Assembly (NCBI GenBank): GCA_001783695.1 | Contig: MFNE01000018.1 | Span: 1-36,221, forward strand | Source: Candidatus Lambdaproteobacteria bacterium RIFOXYD2_FULL_50_16 | GTDB lineage: Bacteria > SAR324 > XYD2-FULL-50-16 | DNA length: 36,221 nt | Direction: 5' to 3' | Shown: one piece after another, positions 6,763 through 18,633 of the stretch | Layout: each line of letters begins with the position of its first letter | Numbering within the stretch: the stretch's first letter is position 1 | Program-made: the position numbers and the translations under genes | Notes under the pieces: model-generated | Seen by the model: only the letters and a program-made list of their open reading frames with translations | Told to the model about the DNA's origin: nothing | Database searches by the model: none

Positions 6763-7809
6763 ATGGGGCTAATCGACCGCTATATCACTCGTGAGTTTGT
6801 GGTCTTTTTTTTAGCCTGTTTGTTAAGCCTGGTGTCGATCGCCCTGACCTTTGTGGTGCTCTCCGAGATGGACGGGATCGGTAAAGAAGGCGGGGTCGAG
6901 CGGTTTTGGGCGAGCTTGCGAGCGGCAGTGCCCCTCTTGATCGAGTTGATCACCCCCATTGCGGTATTATTAGGCACCATCTTAACCTTTACTAGTTTGT
7001 CTAAAACCAGCGAAGCCACGGCGATGCAGGCTGCTGGGGTTAGTTTGGGGCAGATGTTAAAACCAATCCTCTATTGCGGTTTGATCATAGCGGGGCTTTC
7101 TTACCTCAATCAAAGCCACTTGGCCCCCGCTTGGGGATCCGATAAAAAGTTAGGTTTTGGGGAGGTCAAGCCCTCGACCAGTCTCTGGCGTTTTTACCAA
7201 GGCCGTCTCTTTTATTTTACAGGATTAGACCAAGTCCAAGGCGGAGCCCAAAGGGCTGGGATCTTGAGCTTTAACTCAGGTCACCAGCTTACCCAAATCC
7301 AGGAAATCGGTGGGATTCAGGGGACGGAAGAAAAATGGGCTTTAGGCGAGGGGCGGCTTTTAAAGTGGGAAGGGGAAAAGATTGTTTTTTCTCAAACCCC
7401 CGCCCAAGAGACCAGAGCCGACCATTTCCCAATCATTTTTACCCCGGAGCTGGCCTACCCCAAGTATTCTGGGTTTATCCAGTTAGGGCAAGAAATCAAA
7501 ATCAAGGCAGAAGGGGCGGTTAACTATCAGCCGGACCTTTACGCCTTTTTCCAGAAGCTCGCCAGCCTCTTGGCGGTGTTTACTATGATGGCTTTGGCGC
7601 TGCCCTTCTCCCTCTTTTCTGGGAGGCAGGCCAACGCCAAAACCGGGATTGTGGTAGCTGTGATCTTAGGGTTCGTCTTTTGGCTCTTCGATCAATTGTT
7701 TTTGTCCCTCTTCGAGACTGGGGCTCTGCCCGCTTGGCTCGCCGCCTTTGGGTCCAATCTTTTGTTTGGGGGTCTGGCGCTCTTTCTGATCCGCCGCAAA
7801 CTGGGCTAA
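6763..7809 (+). CDS. LptF/LptG-family permease of LPS export (YjgP/YjgQ)
   Basis: A 348-residue inner-membrane protein. It starts with IDRYITREFVVFFLACLL, the family's N-terminal helix and first membrane span, then a second span (LLIELITPIAVLLGTILTFTSLS) ending in the conserved cytoplasmic segment SKTSEATAMQAAGVSL. A periplasmic jellyroll-like region fills the middle, and three further spans close the protein. LptF and LptG form the transmembrane core that, with the LptB ATPase, extracts LPS and passes it to LptC. The N-terminal motif leans to LptG, but only one of the pair is here, so the other must be elsewhere. It begins six bases after the aldolase/dehydrogenase gene. Its last 144 bp are overlapped on the other strand by obgE. 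Confidence 0.86.
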   Translation: MGLIDRYITREFVVFFLACLLSLVSIALTFVVLSEMDGIGKEGGVERFWASLRAAVPLLIELITPIAVLLGTILTFTSLSKTSEATAMQAAGVSLGQMLKPILYCGLIIAGLSYLNQSHLAPAWGSDKKLGFGEVKPSTSLWRFYQGRLFYFTGLDQVQGGAQRAGILSFNSGHQLTQIQEIGGIQGTEEKWALGEGRLLKWEGEKIVFSQTPAQETRADHFPIIFTPELAYPKYSGFIQLGQEIKIKAEGAVNYQPDLYAFFQKLASLLAVFTMMALALPFSLFSGRQANAKTGIVVAVILGFVFWLFDQLFLSLFETGALPAWLAAFGSNLLFGGLALFLIRRKLG

Positions 7810-8811
7810 CCGCCCAGCTTCAACCATCTCCCAAAGCCGCCATAAGAGGGACTCCAGCCCTTCCTTGCTAACCGCGCTGATTACAAAAAAGTCCTCACCC
7901 AACGCTTTAAACTGGGCCTTGAGTTCATCTAGGTCTAGTTCTGGATCTAACGAATCGGCTTTAGTGAGTACAATCACCCGTTTTTTTTGGGTTAAATCTT
8001 CTGAGAAAAGCCGCAATTCCTCGAGTAAACATTGGTAGGTCTCCATGGGGGGCTTCGCGGCAAATGCGGTCCCGTCTAATAGTAGGGCTAAGCCTTGAGT
8101 CCGGCGGATGTGTTTTAAAAACCGGTCACCTAACCCAAGCCCTTCATGGGCACCCTCGATAATCCCAGGAATATCGGCAATCACAAAGTTTTTATAGTCC
8201 GCCATCTGCACCGCGCCCAAGTTTGGAACCAGCGTGGTAAAGGGATAATCCGCAATCTTGGGGCGGGCTGCTGAAACACTTGAGATCAAGGTGGATTTGC
8301 CCGCATTAGGGAATCCAACCAAACCCACGTCGGCCATTACCCTAAGTTCTAAGTCAATCTCCATTTCCTCGCCCGCCTCACCCGGCTGGCACTTGCGGGG
8401 CGCCCGGTTGGTCGCGGTTTTATAATGCACATTGCCCTGTCCGCCTCGACCGCCCTTAAGTAGAATTTGCGGCTCTTCGTCTAAAACCTCGGCCACTAGC
8501 TCTCCCGTTAGGCTAGAAGTGATCAAGGTGCCTAAGGGTAATTTAATCACCAGGTCGGCCCCAGACTTGCCGCTGCGCTCCTTACCCATACCTCCGCCCC
8601 CGGTCCCGGCTTTTTGTTGGGGGTTTAGCCGCAAGTCTTGTAGGCTGGTCATTCGGTGGTCACCTTGTATATAAACATGCCCACCGCGCCCGCCGTCACC
8701 GCCGTCGGGGCCGCCAAACTCGATAAACTTCTCCCGCCGGAAGGAGGCGCACCCTGCCCCGCCTTTTCCACTAGCGGCGATAATTCTGGCACTATCTACA
8801 AACTGGACCAT
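7666..8811 (-). CDS. obgE: Obg GTPase (ribosome assembly / stress)
   Basis: A 381-residue Obg protein. Residues 1-158 form the glycine-rich Obg domain (FVDSARIIAASGKGGAGCASFRREKF, then GGPDGGDGGRGGHV). The GTPase domain follows with P-loop GFPNAGKST near 166, the switch/G3 DIPG near 213 and the G4 motif LTKAD near 283. After the G domain a 45-residue Lys/Gln/Pro/Glu-rich tail replaces a folded C-terminal domain. Obg acts in late 50S assembly and stress signalling. The gene starts seven bases after radC and is the last gene of the long minus-strand operon. The tail is encoded antisense to the last membrane spans of the permease gene, so it may have arisen by loss of an earlier stop codon. Confidence 0.96.
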   Translation of the reverse strand: MVQFVDSARIIAASGKGGAGCASFRREKFIEFGGPDGGDGGRGGHVYIQGDHRMTSLQDLRLNPQQKAGTGGGGMGKERSGKSGADLVIKLPLGTLITSSLTGELVAEVLDEEPQILLKGGRGGQGNVHYKTATNRAPRKCQPGEAGEEMEIDLELRVMADVGLVGFPNAGKSTLISSVSAARPKIADYPFTTLVPNLGAVQMADYKNFVIADIPGIIEGAHEGLGLGDRFLKHIRRTQGLALLLDGTAFAAKPPMETYQCLLEELRLFSEDLTQKKRVIVLTKADSLDPELDLDELKAQFKALGEDFFVISAVSKEGLESLLWRLWEMVEAGRLAQFAADQKERQTPKQKIGPKGGEPSGQSPSLEEGQKQLIEEPKDEP

Positions 8812-8818
8812 AGGTTAT

Positions 8819-10195
8819 TTAACCGGGTAACAGGTTTTCATCGACAAAGCTAAAATAGCGCTCTTCCGACAAGATTACATGGTCCAAAACCGCTATCCCG
8901 ATCAATTGCCCCGCCTTAGAGAGCCGATCGGTAATAGCTAGGTCTTGGTGACTCGGCTGAACATCACCCGAGGGATGGTTGTGGATCAAAATAATCGCAG
9001 CCGCCCTGAGTTGAATCGCTGGCGCAAACACCTCACGAGGGTGAACCAAGGTTTGATCCAAGAGGCCCATGCTGATCATCTTAAGCCCAATTTGCTGATA
9101 TTTATTGTCTAAAATAAGAATATGGAAACTTTCTTGTTTTTCTCGACCTAGCCGGAAACGGTAATGTTCAAAAATCCCTTGCGAGTTGGTTATCACCTGC
9201 CCAGGCTTTTCCCGCTCCATGTTGGCAATGCGAAACCCGGCTTCTTCTAAAGCCCTAGCAAACAATATAAATTCTTCTTCCTGCGGCCCAATCTTTTCTA
9301 AGATGGGCAAGGCTTCTAGCCGGCCAGTGGCAAAACCCTGGATCCACCGATTTTGAATCACCCCATTATGCCAGCGTTCTTGAGCTAAATATAACACCAA
9401 CTCACGGGCATCAATCTCGGCCCCTTGGCCAAGACGTAGCCGGTTTTCCAAAGCTAGCCGGGTATCGGTTAGGTAACGTTCCTTAAAAAAACGGCAACCG
9501 CTTTGCAAAAAACAAGAGGGGCAAAGGGGGCTATCCATACAAACACTAGGAAGGCTCAAGGGGGCCAAGGGACCAAAGATCAGATCCCATCTTCGGTCCA
9601 ATTGATAGGCCTCTTCTAGGCTCGCTTGATCCGTTAATTTATCGAACCATCCTTGGTAAGATTCGCTTTCGGTGCCGTCAAATCGCCGAAAAGCCCGGTA
9701 CGCCCCTTGGGAATGAGGAAAGCCATACCCAATCCGACTCAAAAACCTAGCTGCCGCCCAAGGTTCGTCTAGTCTAAGGTCTTGGTAAAGTCCAAAAAGC
9801 GTGTCAAAGGGGTCTTCGGCAATTTGGCGATGATAATCCCCCCTATGCCATTGGTTGATTCGCTCTTGAAAACGTAATAGGCGAATTTGTAATAATTCTT
9901 GATCCTCGGGCTCTAAAAAGCCCAGCGGACTCTTGGAGATTAAGGCCTTGATTTGGGGTTGAGTGGTAAATTCGTTAAGCTGTTCCAACTCCGTTTGCCA
10001 AGGTCCCAAGGGATTTTGGGGCAAACATAAACAAGCCCGTCCCGCTTCTGGTAAGGCTTCGGGCAAAAAAGCCCTCCAGAGGAATTGGTCGGTCAGGCGA
10101 GGCGGGCGTGGTTTAGGTGTTAGGGCCGCTATTTGAGGACCAAACCCTTGTTTTTGTATCCATTTTTCAACCAGTCGAGAAAACTGCTCAAACAT
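8819..10195 (-). CDS. RadC (JAMM/MPN) protein with N-terminal endonuclease III-like Fe-S region
   Basis: A 458-residue protein, about twice the usual RadC length. Residues about 335-458 are a RadC/MPN domain with an intact JAMM zinc motif: His405, His407 and Asp418 (HNHPSGD then D), Glu354 as likely catalytic acid, and the VHPREVF and LDHVIL segments of the family. The RadC-typical helix-hairpin-helix region lies just before it (ALPILEKIGP). The N-terminal 240 residues are extra: SPLGF then an LLRF helix (89-110), LSRIGYG (152-158) and the cysteines 219, 225, 228 and 234 spaced C-x5-C-x2-C-x5-C. This order resembles endonuclease III-type glycosylases with a [4Fe-4S] loop, but no catalytic Lys is evident. 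The start overlaps the nit stop by one base (TGATG). The biochemical role is unknown; nuclease or protease activity is not established for RadC. Confidence 0.8.
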   Translation of the reverse strand: MFEQFSRLVEKWIQKQGFGPQIAALTPKPRPPRLTDQFLWRAFLPEALPEAGRACLCLPQNPLGPWQTELEQLNEFTTQPQIKALISKSPLGFLEPEDQELLQIRLLRFQERINQWHRGDYHRQIAEDPFDTLFGLYQDLRLDEPWAAARFLSRIGYGFPHSQGAYRAFRRFDGTESESYQGWFDKLTDQASLEEAYQLDRRWDLIFGPLAPLSLPSVCMDSPLCPSCFLQSGCRFFKERYLTDTRLALENRLRLGQGAEIDARELVLYLAQERWHNGVIQNRWIQGFATGRLEALPILEKIGPQEEEFILFARALEEAGFRIANMEREKPGQVITNSQGIFEHYRFRLGREKQESFHILILDNKYQQIGLKMISMGLLDQTLVHPREVFAPAIQLRAAAIILIHNHPSGDVQPSHQDLAITDRLSKAGQLIGIAVLDHVILSEERYFSFVDENLLPG

Positions 10196-15005: not shown

Positions 15006-17651
15006 TTATAGCCACCGTTTGGGCATGCGGTTAGTCCAACAGGACAGGATTTGATAGGTGACCGTACCCGCCCCGCGAGCTATTTCCATAGCCGTAATTT
15101 CTTCATCTCCTTGTTTACCCAAAAGGACCACTTCATCGCCTGGATGCACAGGCAGTCCAGTCACTTCCACCATGAGCGCGTCCATTGAGTTGCCGCCCCG
15201 GATTGGGCAACGTTTTCCATGGAGGAGAACAAAGCCTTTGTTGCGTATTCTAGGATAACCATCTCCGTAACCAATTGGCAAAACCGCTATTTTTGCAGGC
15301 GCTTCGGCGGTCCAGTGCATCCCGTATCCGACCTTGTCTCCAGGTCCCAATTCCTTAACAAAAGCCACCTTGGCTTTGACCTCCATTGCGGGCGCTAGGC
15401 CCTTAATCCGGCGGCAAACCTCGGAGGGATAGACCCCGGTTAAAAGCGCCCCGATCCGCACCATATCGCCATGGGCAAAGGGAAGGTCCAGATAACCGCC
15501 CGAGTTGGCGGCGTGGACTAGAGGTGGTTTAATCCCCTGGCTAGCCAGTTCCTTAAGCACCTTTTCAAAACGTTGCCACTGGAGATGGGCGTAAGCTTTC
15601 TCGGCTTCGTCTGATTGGGCGAAGTGGGTAAAAAGGCCAATTAGTTCGACCTGGGGCAGTCCAGAGATGTCTGTAAACAACCGGGCTGCTTTCTCCGGCA
15701 GCACCCCATATCGCCCCATACCCGTATCGACTTTAAGGTGAAGTCGAGCGGTTTTGCCTAGCTCTAAAGCCACGCGGCTGATCTCCTGGGCCCGCTCTAA
15801 GCTTTGAACCTGAAGGTCCAGGTTAAGCTGTAACGCTAACTCCAGGTCGGCGGTTTGTCGTTCCCCAAAAACCAAAATCCCAATCTGGGCCAACCCCGCT
15901 TGGCGAAGGGCAATCGCCTCTTCCATGCAGGCCACCCCAAGATAGGCTAGCCCTTCTTCTTGAGCGATTTTTGCCACCTGAACCAGTCCGTGGCCCAAGG
16001 CTTCATCCTTTACGACCGCCATCACTGACAATTGAGCTGGCTTTTCGGCCAGTATAAGTCGTAGATTTTGGCGTATTTGCTCTGGATTGATCTCGACTTG
16101 GGCGCGGAAATGGGGTTCCTTATGGCGCTCAAAAAAAGCGCGCACTTGGACCCGATCCGAAAAAGGGGTTTGTTGGTGACCAATAATCTGGTAGGTTTCA
16201 TGTCCCTTACCTGCAATCAAAACCGAATCCATCGGCCCCGCCATCTCCAAGGCCAGAGCTATGGCCTTGGCTCGGTCTAATTCAATATAAAGATGGGTCT
16301 GGTCTTCAGGGGCGATCCCGGCGGCAATCTCCAGCGCGATTTTTTGGGGGTCTTCGGTTCTGGGATTGTCTGAAGTGACCACTACTTGGTCCGCATATTT
16401 ACTAGCAATCGCCCCCATAATAGGTCGTTTGGTTGCGTCCCGGTCGCCCCCGCAACCAAAGACGCAAATTCCTCGCCCTCGGCATAGGCTCATGATTTCT
16501 TTGAGGATTTTTTCTAAAGCGTCGGGCGTGTGGGCATAGTCTATAAAAATATCGGTCCCTTTTGGGCTTTCGATTTTTTCGAAGCGTCCGTCAATCTGGC
16601 GGGCTCGCTCTAGGCCCTGGATTAAGGTTTCGAGCCGAATATCCATAGCCAACCCGGCAGCAAAGGCGGCCACCGCGTTATAAATATTAAAGGTCCCGGC
16701 CATGGGAAGCCGCACCTCCCCAAGGTCGTTACCGCGAAGGGTCAACTGAAATCGACTGCTTTTGCCGGTCATTTCTATGGGTGTCGCGCGCAAATCTGCG
16801 TTTTTAGCCCTAATGCCGTAGGTCACCAGCAAAATCCGTCCCATTCGTTTGGCATAATCGTCTAGCGCCACCACAAACTCCCCCGCGTAAGGATCGTCCA
16901 GGTTGACAATGGCAACGGCCTTCTTTTTCCCTTGGCCTAACTGTTTAAAAAATTTGACCTTTGCTTTTAGATAGGCCTCCATCGAGTGGTGGTGGTCGAG
17001 ATGGTCTTGGGTCAGATTGGTGAAAATAGCGATGTCATAATCAAGCGCGTGATTCCGGTCGTAGTCCATCGCGTGACTGGTCACCTCCATCATCACCGCT
17101 TGGGCCTCCGCCTTTTTCATGCGGGCGCCAATGGCGAACAAATCAATGGCTAAGGGGTTGGAGAGATGGGTGGGTGGTTCTTTCGAATCAGGATAAAAGG
17201 TGCCGATGGTGCCAATCACCCCAGCTTTAAATTTAGCATGGGTCAAGATGCCGTCTAAGATTTGGCAGGTAGTGGTTTTCCCGTTGGTGCCGGTTATTCC
17301 AATCAGCCGCATGTGGGCATAGGGGTCCCCATAAAACCGTTTGGCAATTAGGGCCATCGCTTGGTTGAGGTGCCAACAAACCACCTGCACTACCCCGGCA
17401 GGCGGGTTAATCCGGGCTGCTTTACTCGTAAAAAGGCAAACCGCGCCCCGGTCTAAGGCCTCGCCCCAATGGTCTAAACCGCTGGGCTTGAGGTGGGGTT
17501 CCTGAAATTCTTCCTGCTCAAGACAAAAATACGCGCCTCCAGGGGTCACTTTCAGGGGATCGAAATGTAAAGAGGAAATCTCGGTCTGGAGGTTTCCAAT
17601 TACTTGCAAACCCGACTCAGGCAAACCGACCAACAATTCGGCCAGGGTCAT
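15006..17651 (-). CDS. murE-alr: MurE ligase fused to alanine racemase
   Basis: An 881-residue fusion. Residues 1 to about 515 are MurE, which adds meso-diaminopimelate to UDP-MurNAc-L-Ala-D-Glu: P-loop GTNGKT at 121-126, the lysine expected to be carbamylated at 231 (YLKAK) and DNPR at 428-431, the meso-DAP-selecting motif. Residues about 516-881 are a PLP alanine racemase that makes D-alanine: PLP Lys548 (AVVKDEALGHG), the KVDTGMGR segment, HAANS, and catalytic Tyr776 (VGYG). The second domain starts almost directly after MurE with no long linker. The usual RPGIxLYG motif is altered (RIGALLTG), though its Arg is kept. I chose the ATG at 17649-17651, one base after the upstream stop; an in-frame upstream start would overlap the previous gene by 83 bp and precede the conserved MurE start. 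Confidence 0.94.
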   Translation of the reverse strand: MTLAELLVGLPESGLQVIGNLQTEISSLHFDPLKVTPGGAYFCLEQEEFQEPHLKPSGLDHWGEALDRGAVCLFTSKAARINPPAGVVQVVCWHLNQAMALIAKRFYGDPYAHMRLIGITGTNGKTTTCQILDGILTHAKFKAGVIGTIGTFYPDSKEPPTHLSNPLAIDLFAIGARMKKAEAQAVMMEVTSHAMDYDRNHALDYDIAIFTNLTQDHLDHHHSMEAYLKAKVKFFKQLGQGKKKAVAIVNLDDPYAGEFVVALDDYAKRMGRILLVTYGIRAKNADLRATPIEMTGKSSRFQLTLRGNDLGEVRLPMAGTFNIYNAVAAFAAGLAMDIRLETLIQGLERARQIDGRFEKIESPKGTDIFIDYAHTPDALEKILKEIMSLCRGRGICVFGCGGDRDATKRPIMGAIASKYADQVVVTSDNPRTEDPQKIALEIAAGIAPEDQTHLYIELDRAKAIALALEMAGPMDSVLIAGKGHETYQIIGHQQTPFSDRVQVRAFFERHKEPHFRAQVEINPEQIRQNLRLILAEKPAQLSVMAVVKDEALGHGLVQVAKIAQEEGLAYLGVACMEEAIALRQAGLAQIGILVFGERQTADLELALQLNLDLQVQSLERAQEISRVALELGKTARLHLKVDTGMGRYGVLPEKAARLFTDISGLPQVELIGLFTHFAQSDEAEKAYAHLQWQRFEKVLKELASQGIKPPLVHAANSGGYLDLPFAHGDMVRIGALLTGVYPSEVCRRIKGLAPAMEVKAKVAFVKELGPGDKVGYGMHWTAEAPAKIAVLPIGYGDGYPRIRNKGFVLLHGKRCPIRGGNSMDALMVEVTGLPVHPGDEVVLLGKQGDEEITAMEIARGAGTVTYQILSCWTNRMPKRWL

Positions 17652-17652
17652 C

Positions 17653-18633
17653 TTATTTCCCGCCAAAACTAAAACTTCTGCCGCGAGAGGCCGAGCCCCT
17701 AAAACTGCTACCGACGGAGGAATTGTTGCGACCAAACCCCTGCCCAGCCTGCCCTAGTCGGCTTGATCCAGCACCTAATTGGGAAGGTCGTGCCGCTCGT
17801 TGCCCAAACCCGCCTTTGCCCACCTTTTGGCTAGCGGCTTTGGCTTGAAATTGTTTTTGGGTGCCGGTCGGTTTTTTAAGGCTACGGCTGATCCCCTGAT
17901 TAGCGGTTTTGCCTTTGTTGGGATTGTCTATTTTGGTTGGAGAGGTCTGTTGGTAGCGACTGGGCCCAACTACCACCGTGCGTGAGTAGCTGTGCATCGA
18001 GGACAGATAAAGGCTGGTGGCTATCAGCGAAAAGGGTGAAAAATAGCCAGGATAATACCCATAACCAAAGGGCGAGGCCCAGAGTGGCCTGGGATAAAAA
18101 TAGCTGCCATACATGGGGGGGTACCCCTCGCCTTGAGGGGCAGGCTGCGTGGTCCGTTCGACCGGGGCCCAGTCGTTAAAGACGGCGTTGTCCCCATAAA
18201 TCTGCTCGTTGCCCACCACCTGGATTTCGGCGCGGTCGCCATTTTTTTCAATGGTAGCTTCCGCGATTTCTTGGCGTTCCCCTTTGGCCGGTTCGGTATA
18301 AAGCGAAAAGCCTAGCTTATTCTCGGTGTTACCAAACTCCGTCACCTGAATATAGTCCACCTTTTCGTCGTCATTTAGGTCCAGGTTATTGATACTGCTG
18401 GGCTCATTTAGCCGTCTTTCTAATTCTTGCCCAGAGCGCACCTCTTTTGCCAACCCGGCCAAGGCTTCTAACTTAAAACCCTCTGCCGCTTCTAAAGCGG
18501 GCAGGGGCGCGGGTTGTTCAAGCTGCTCAATTTGTTGTTGATCAGAGGGATAACCCCCAGAAAGCCAGCCCACTAACGAATAGGCGAGGTTGGCAACCAG
18601 GATAAATACCAATGCGATTTTGAGGGCTTTCAT
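17653..18633 (-). CDS. Secreted or membrane-anchored hypothetical protein with Gly/Ser/Arg-rich tail
   Basis: A 326-residue protein of no family I recognise. An N-terminal hydrophobic helix (IALVFILVANLAYSLVGWL) is a signal anchor or signal peptide. Residues about 95-110 contain DLNDDEKVDYIQV, close to the calcium-binding loop of EF-hand/dockerin repeats but with Glu where Gly is usual. A Tyr/Pro/Gly-rich patch (YPPMYGSYFYPRP, then FGYGYYPGYF) lies near 165-195, followed by a basic, Gln/Lys-rich region. The last 50 residues are rich in Gly, Ser, Arg and Phe, ending GRSFSFGGK. It stops one base before MurE-Alr, so it is likely the first or an early gene of that operon. The tail may be disordered. 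Confidence 0.75.
   Translation of the reverse strand: MKALKIALVFILVANLAYSLVGWLSGGYPSDQQQIEQLEQPAPLPALEAAEGFKLEALAGLAKEVRSGQELERRLNEPSSINNLDLNDDEKVDYIQVTEFGNTENKLGFSLYTEPAKGERQEIAEATIEKNGDRAEIQVVGNEQIYGDNAVFNDWAPVERTTQPAPQGEGYPPMYGSYFYPRPLWASPFGYGYYPGYFSPFSLIATSLYLSSMHSYSRTVVVGPSRYQQTSPTKIDNPNKGKTANQGISRSLKKPTGTQKQFQAKAASQKVGKGGFGQRAARPSQLGAGSSRLGQAGQGFGRNNSSVGSSFRGSASRGRSFSFGGK

Follow-up and report, generated by a model that had tools for sequence, protein, structure and literature searches.

The window analysed here, a stretch of 36,221 nt at the start of contig MFNE01000018.1 of Candidatus Lambdaproteobacteria bacterium RIFOXYD2_FULL_50_16, carries the organism's housekeeping radC gene, the product of which has an extra N-terminal module of about 240 residues. 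We identify this module with high confidence as a decayed glycosylase Fe-S module. It probably descends from a helix-hairpin-helix (HhH-GPD) glycosylase, and would now act as a non-catalytic pseudo-glycosylase that scaffolds or gates the JAMM domain of RadC. The fusion is found across the phylum of the window (hereafter the window phylum) and in a second phylum, and this phylum-wide variant of RadC is likely to be new.

Domain layout of the fused RadC

The gene occupies 8819–10195 on the minus strand, an ATG-start ORF of 458 aa plus stop. The original prediction, which gave no strand, described a RadC/MPN end with His405, His407 and Asp418, preceded by about 240 additional residues with four cysteines spaced C-x5-C-x2-C-x5-C; all of these residues are exactly as described, the cysteines being C219, C225, C228 and C234.

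The RadC JAMM/MPN domain (residues 335–458; 8822–9193, minus strand) retains an intact zinc site. It matches Pfam RadC (PF04002) over residues 335–454 (E 9.6e-40; 135.7 bits against a cut-off of 22.1) and the model of the protein aligns to structure 2qlc (Foldseek E 4.5e-11, TMt 0.91), to which the domain is 44% identical. The JAMM-site residues E355, H405, H407, S415 and D418 are invariant in all 50 rows of an alignment of 30 full-length window-phylum and 20 second-phylum proteins. In its E, HxH and D residues, and in being the single RadC of its genome, the protein resembles RadC/UPF0758 proteins (PF04002 with PF20582), but it differs from them in the module placed in front, in an unrecognisable UPF0758_N domain and in scores below the NCBIfam RadC cut-offs (NF000642, 142.9 against 180 bits; TIGR00608, 129.7 against 133.85 bits), which are narrowly missed for want of a recognisable N-terminal half of the usual kind. 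The place of the canonical UPF0758_N (HhH) domain is taken by residues 241–334 (9194–9475, minus strand), where PF20582 found no match, and the Pfam scan placed no family anywhere over residues 1–334.

The AF2 model of the protein has a mean pLDDT of 90.5, with about 95 for the helical module. Residues 1–207 (9575–10195, minus strand) form this all-helical module, which is HhH-GPD (EndoIII/MutY/OGG)-like by homology via second-phylum orthologues, as judged from the AF2 helices and profile searches. It is followed by a predicted Fe-S cluster loop at residues 216–240 (9476–9550, minus strand), C219-x5-C225-x2-C228-x5-C234. The genome separately encodes three ordinary HhH-GPD proteins. A role in anti-phage defence was considered and is unsupported, as the PADLOC defence-system models gave no match to the window protein.

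Relationship of the module to HhH-GPD glycosylases

The original prediction of a degenerate EndoIII/MutY-type Fe-S module is upheld by profile and fold matches of the second-phylum proteins, and indirectly for the window protein itself. When aligned by hhalign to an eight-sequence EndoIII/MutY/MagIII alignment, the second-phylum profile gave an E-value of 1.3e-11. With the Fe-S loop removed and all cysteines masked it still gave 2.2e-5, compared to 0.23 for the best of 60 column shuffles made on the combined alignment. Among 43 matches in a profile search of PDB sequences, 40 were glycosylases of the EndoIII, MutY, OGG or ROS1 types (best E 0.002). The AlphaFold model of a second-phylum protein (genome G211; mean pLDDT 87.6) retrieved, after RadC structures, MutY 1rrs (E 0.012, prob 1.00), MUTYH and MjOgg 3knt (TMt 0.63). 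The second-phylum module is thus an EndoIII/MutY/OGG-type HhH-GPD domain with an Fe-S loop, and its homology to the glycosylases is direct.

The window-phylum proteins are more distant. The best glycosylase found by Foldseek for the window protein was SsOgg 3fhg, a weak match (E 1.3, prob 0.60, TMt 0.52). The window-phylum rows taken alone could be linked by sequence to EndoIII through the Fe-S loop only (hhalign E 1.8e-6), searches of PDB with the window-phylum module by phmmer and hmmsearch returned noise (MutY at E 8–9), and for the window protein neither Pfam nor NCBIfam gave an HhH-GPD or Fe-S domain above cut-off. Because the fold match is weak and the EndoIII link passes through the loop alone, HhH-GPD ancestry in the window phylum is inferred through the second-phylum homologue, and the domain is heavily decayed. 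The window-phylum module is homologous to glycosylases by transitivity through the second-phylum fusion, and the evidence is to that extent indirect. The fold found is that of HhH-GPD glycosylases, and the four cysteines are conserved across orthologues, as described next.

Like EndoIII, MutY, MagIII and OGG2 (PF00730 with PF10576), the window protein has a helical module in which a hairpin-helix, an Asp segment and a C-terminal four-cysteine loop with MagIII-like spacing follow in collinear order; it is unlike them in lacking the catalytic Lys/Asp pair and a Pfam HhH-GPD match, in being joined to RadC, and in the acidic character of the module in the window phylum.

Conservation of the four-cysteine loop

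None of 100,000 shuffles of the window protein reproduced the C-x5-C-x2-C-x5-C motif, and its conservation puts it well outside chance. In 23 orthologues, the modules of which share 15–41% identity with that of the window protein, the columns that never vary within the first 250 residues are W146, W183, C219, C225, C228 and C234; the four cysteines have thus persisted in a module that has otherwise diverged almost completely. All four occur in 30/30 window-phylum and 20/20 second-phylum aligned proteins. In a slightly larger set the x5-x2-x5 spacing was found in 50 of 52 proteins, the exceptions being two: L133 of the second phylum, which has the EndoIII spacing (x6-x2-x5), and G398, which has lost one cysteine. 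The original prediction had taken the x5 spacing as a departure from the glycosylase family, but MagIII-like EndoIII proteins of other genomes share C-x5-C-x2-C-x5-C, so there is no deviation to explain. The Pfam model for the loop (EndIII_4Fe-2S, PF10576) gave weak, sub-threshold matches in 5/23 and 12/20 homologues.

A [4Fe-4S] cluster is bound by the four-cysteine loop in EndoIII and MutY, and likely also by the conserved cysteines of the RadC module. One RadC, outside the 52-protein spacing set, keeps the long extension and the JAMM site and has none of the four cysteines; it comes from a reduced genome of 1.5 Mb (G010, L084:4125-5537). The EndoIII-like protein of that genome still matches the Fe-S loop profile, which makes a loss of cluster assembly an unlikely reason for the loss of the cysteines. 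Together with the single cysteine missing from G398, this indicates that the cluster is not indispensable everywhere.

Loss of catalytic residues

Residues 146–172 (9680–9760, minus strand) correspond to the HhH helix and the segment of the catalytic Asp, as placed by column counts over 30 window-phylum and 20 second-phylum proteins and by the hhalign register. In the second phylum this segment reads approximately L-x-G-L-R-A-x-x-F-L-x-x-I-G-Y-P-x-x-V-P-D; the residue aligned to the EndoIII catalytic Asp is acidic (D or E) in 14/20 proteins, and 15/20 carry R or K as the hairpin residue. For the aligned Asp position the window-phylum counts list S, Q, W, R or K and neither D nor E, and the expected place of the hairpin is occupied by the invariant W146; a conserved Lys and a HhH GxG hairpin are both missing. 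The window protein has S162/Q163 at the Asp position and so has no catalytic pair, as had been predicted. The heptapeptide LSRIGYG, described earlier as hairpin-like, is not the HhH hairpin: the second-phylum-led profile alignment puts it on the segment that follows the hairpin and immediately precedes the position of the catalytic Asp.

Since the counts show no acidic residue at the Asp position and W146 stands in place of the hairpin, the window-phylum module is unlikely to be a working glycosylase. Separate, ordinary glycosylases are kept in all 52 genomes of the window-phylum survey.

The window organism also encodes, on contig 28 (L037:1387-2067, minus strand), a MagIII-like HhH-GPD protein without the four Fe-S cysteines (FYRKKPYPSLDPVL). 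It is the reverse of the RadC module, where the cysteines stayed and catalysis went.

Distribution of the fusion

The N-terminal module was used as a profile to survey 52 window-phylum genomes, all of one class. The module turned up in 42 of these genomes, including all 15 of good quality, and in 25 of 26 genera. RadC was also matched in 42/52 genomes, and 41 of these 42 RadC bearers carry the module; G043 is the only RadC-bearing genome without it, and G048 has a fragment of the module at a contig edge and no RadC match. Outside the phylum, the window-phylum profile retrieved proteins of G211 (E 2e-9) and G099, both of them RadCs of 480–495 aa with the same C-x5-C-x2-C-x5-C loop. In the phylum of G211, the second phylum, 37/40 genomes gave matches, mostly over the full length. 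The same fusion is thus shared by other RadC proteins in both phyla and in G099. UPF0758_N (PF20582) is strongly matched in the second-phylum and G099 proteins and undetectable in window-phylum RadC proteins. The part of the module recognised in G099 is the second half of the barrel and the Fe-S loop only (profile positions 65–143).

Two domain-wide samplings (383 and 385 genomes, partly overlapping) revealed the module–RadC fusion in no further lineage. RadC itself was present in 269 of the 383 genomes, and the lineages sampled outside the fused groups carried plain RadC or lacked RadC. Among the best 150 or so matches listed from these 269 RadC-bearing genomes, long RadC frames belonged to the fused groups and to G272 only, and G272 was rejected as its extension is different and has no cysteines. 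The remaining module-profile matches that were inspected are stand-alone EndoIII-like or MutY proteins, and three other long frames with the cysteine motif proved to be MutY (L179, L180) or EndoIII-like (L178). A search for related loci in genome contigs gave plain RadCs only. Both fused groups were coherent in a tree of the JAMM domain (130 columns, SH-aLRT support only), a tree in which many forks are unresolved and in which one fusion event and several are indistinguishable.

In one genome (G005, L083:3197-4633) a stop divides the fused radC into two frames, one of 290 aa with the Fe-S module and one of 139 aa with the JAMM domain, representing either decay, an assembly error or a real two-gene version. 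Two others (G006, L202; G009, L204) have extra, short RadC copies of about 190–200 aa without the Fe-S module. The JAMM domains of these copies group among the fused RadCs of the family in the tree, and they are perhaps truncated duplicates on mobile elements.

Gene neighbourhood and other features of the window

The gene lies in a tight co-directional run on the minus strand, tolQ-tolR-tolA-tolB-cpoB-nit-radC-obgE, in which the radC start overlaps the nit end, with obgE a few bases beyond radC. The order nit-radC-obgE-lptF is found at most loci of the window's family, and not in other families or in the second phylum. The gene after radC is RlmE/FtsJ-like in a second family and encodes an ABC ATPase in several genomes of the second phylum. 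Being confined to one family, the order carries no functional signal, and assignment of a function from the operon was rejected as the neighbours differ among families. No conserved DNA-repair neighbour of the fused radC was found in the neighbourhoods compared.

The genes lptF/G (6763–7809, plus strand) and obgE (7666–8811, minus strand) overlap tail to tail at their 3′ ends by 144 bases (7666–7809). This antisense overlap appears to be conserved, since the tblastn matches of both genes overlap likewise in several of the family's genomes (e.g., L083, L089, L090). At 15006–17735 (minus strand) is a 909-aa fusion of a Mur ligase (MurE-like by sequence) and an alanine racemase (Ala_racemase_N and _C). 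A 93-nt direct repeat in two copies, 83% identical, at 184–369 lies over a 202-aa minus-strand frame with repeated residues, which is probably not a gene.

Possible roles of the module

We propose that an EndoIII/MutY/OGG-type glycosylase ancestor decayed into a non-catalytic pseudo-glycosylase on RadC, with selection retaining the four-cysteine loop and the zinc-type JAMM active site. The module would excise no bases; it would instead be a scaffold or sensor by which the JAMM domain is positioned, recruited or gated on its substrate. For second-phylum proteins this would probably take place on DNA, and in the window phylum a protein-contact, structural or redox role may be at least as likely as a role on DNA, because the module is acidic there and the HhH hairpins have been lost.

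Of the more specific roles, the likeliest is one close to the original prediction, in which the HhH/Fe-S fold still lets the pseudo-glycosylase scan or bind DNA (damaged bases, junctions or ends) and so bring the JAMM domain, as nuclease or peptidase, to the DNA. We regard this as possible, with the odds somewhat against it. Known Fe-S glycosylases bind DNA with the same fold, and in the second phylum the module is basic (median net charge +4, pI 8.6) and accompanied by UPF0758_N and HHH matches. However, both the window-phylum module (median net −4, pI 6.0) and the region that follows it (−3) are acidic, although charge alone is not decisive given that EndoIII relatives range from −5 to +10; the GxG hairpins are gone from both modules in the window phylum, and the neighbourhoods hold no conserved repair gene. 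DNA binding is therefore plausible for the second-phylum proteins and doubtful for those of the window phylum, and the suggestion in the original prediction that the fusion ties RadC to DNA is weakened for the latter by the acidic module and linker, the missing UPF0758_N domain and the missing GxG hairpin.

It is rather unlikely that the cluster is primarily a switch, sensing oxidation and altering JAMM activity or partner binding, with DNA of minor importance. Nothing in the protein is better conserved than the cysteine ligands and the JAMM residues (the rest of the module is at 13–30% identity), and the part recognisable in G099 includes the Fe-S loop and half of the barrel. Set against this, the clusters of EndoIII and MutY can be mainly structural, and the reduced genome G010 dispenses with the cysteines.

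The four cysteines could, in principle, form a small structural zinc loop within a helical domain, resembling the EndoIII loop by convergence: a four-cysteine loop can bind Zn, and the Foldseek match of the window protein to a glycosylase is weak. We consider this very unlikely, as the sequence of the loop matches EndoIII/MutY loops, it is placed as in EndoIII after the same helical segment, and the similarity of the second-phylum module persists with the cysteines masked and the loop removed. Least probable of all is an active DNA glycosylase or AP lyase using other residues, which the frequent D/E and R/K of the second phylum might favour, but neither position is strictly conserved there, the window-phylum counts hold no acidic residue at the Asp position and no conserved Lys, and ordinary glycosylases occur in every genome.

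Relation to known proteins and significance

The fused protein has partial parallels. RadC-like DinG helicases, known and unstudied (PMC11981726), are a further natural case in which a RadC JAMM domain is joined to a DNA-acting protein with an Fe-S domain, but they belong to helicase superfamily 2, carry the RadC domain at the N-terminus and have no glycosylase module. EndoIII3 of D. radiodurans, one of the inactive or unusual EndoIII homologues, is an EndoIII-like protein with no detectable glycosylase activity (PMC10523315), but a stand-alone one without fusion to RadC. No description of a RadC–glycosylase Fe-S fusion was found in the open-access literature searched; as this is only part of the whole, novelty is likely and not proven.

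The role of RadC in repair was disputed (Attaiech et al. 2008, cited in PMC5512222 and PMC11981726), and its function has been open ever since. That RadC is joined throughout a phylum to a decayed base-excision glycosylase, the putative Fe-S ligands of which are invariant, is a strong 'Rosetta stone' hint, suggesting that RadC works with the recognition of oxidative base damage or with redox state. It also represents a class of predicted Fe-S proteins missed by current Pfam and NCBIfam models, which have no family over residues 1–334. The fusion offers a first tangible clue to what RadC may sense or bind, and one that is measurable, through the cluster, DNA binding, and JAMM activity with and without the cluster.

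A bolder proposal, which we put forward as speculative and improbable as it stands, is that RadC in both phyla is a damage- or redox-gated JAMM enzyme, in which the pseudo-glycosylase Fe-S module would read lesions or oxidation state and switch on a JAMM peptidase or nuclease. We know of no precedent in bacteria for such a regulator of repair, and, if true, it would also give ordinary RadC its function.
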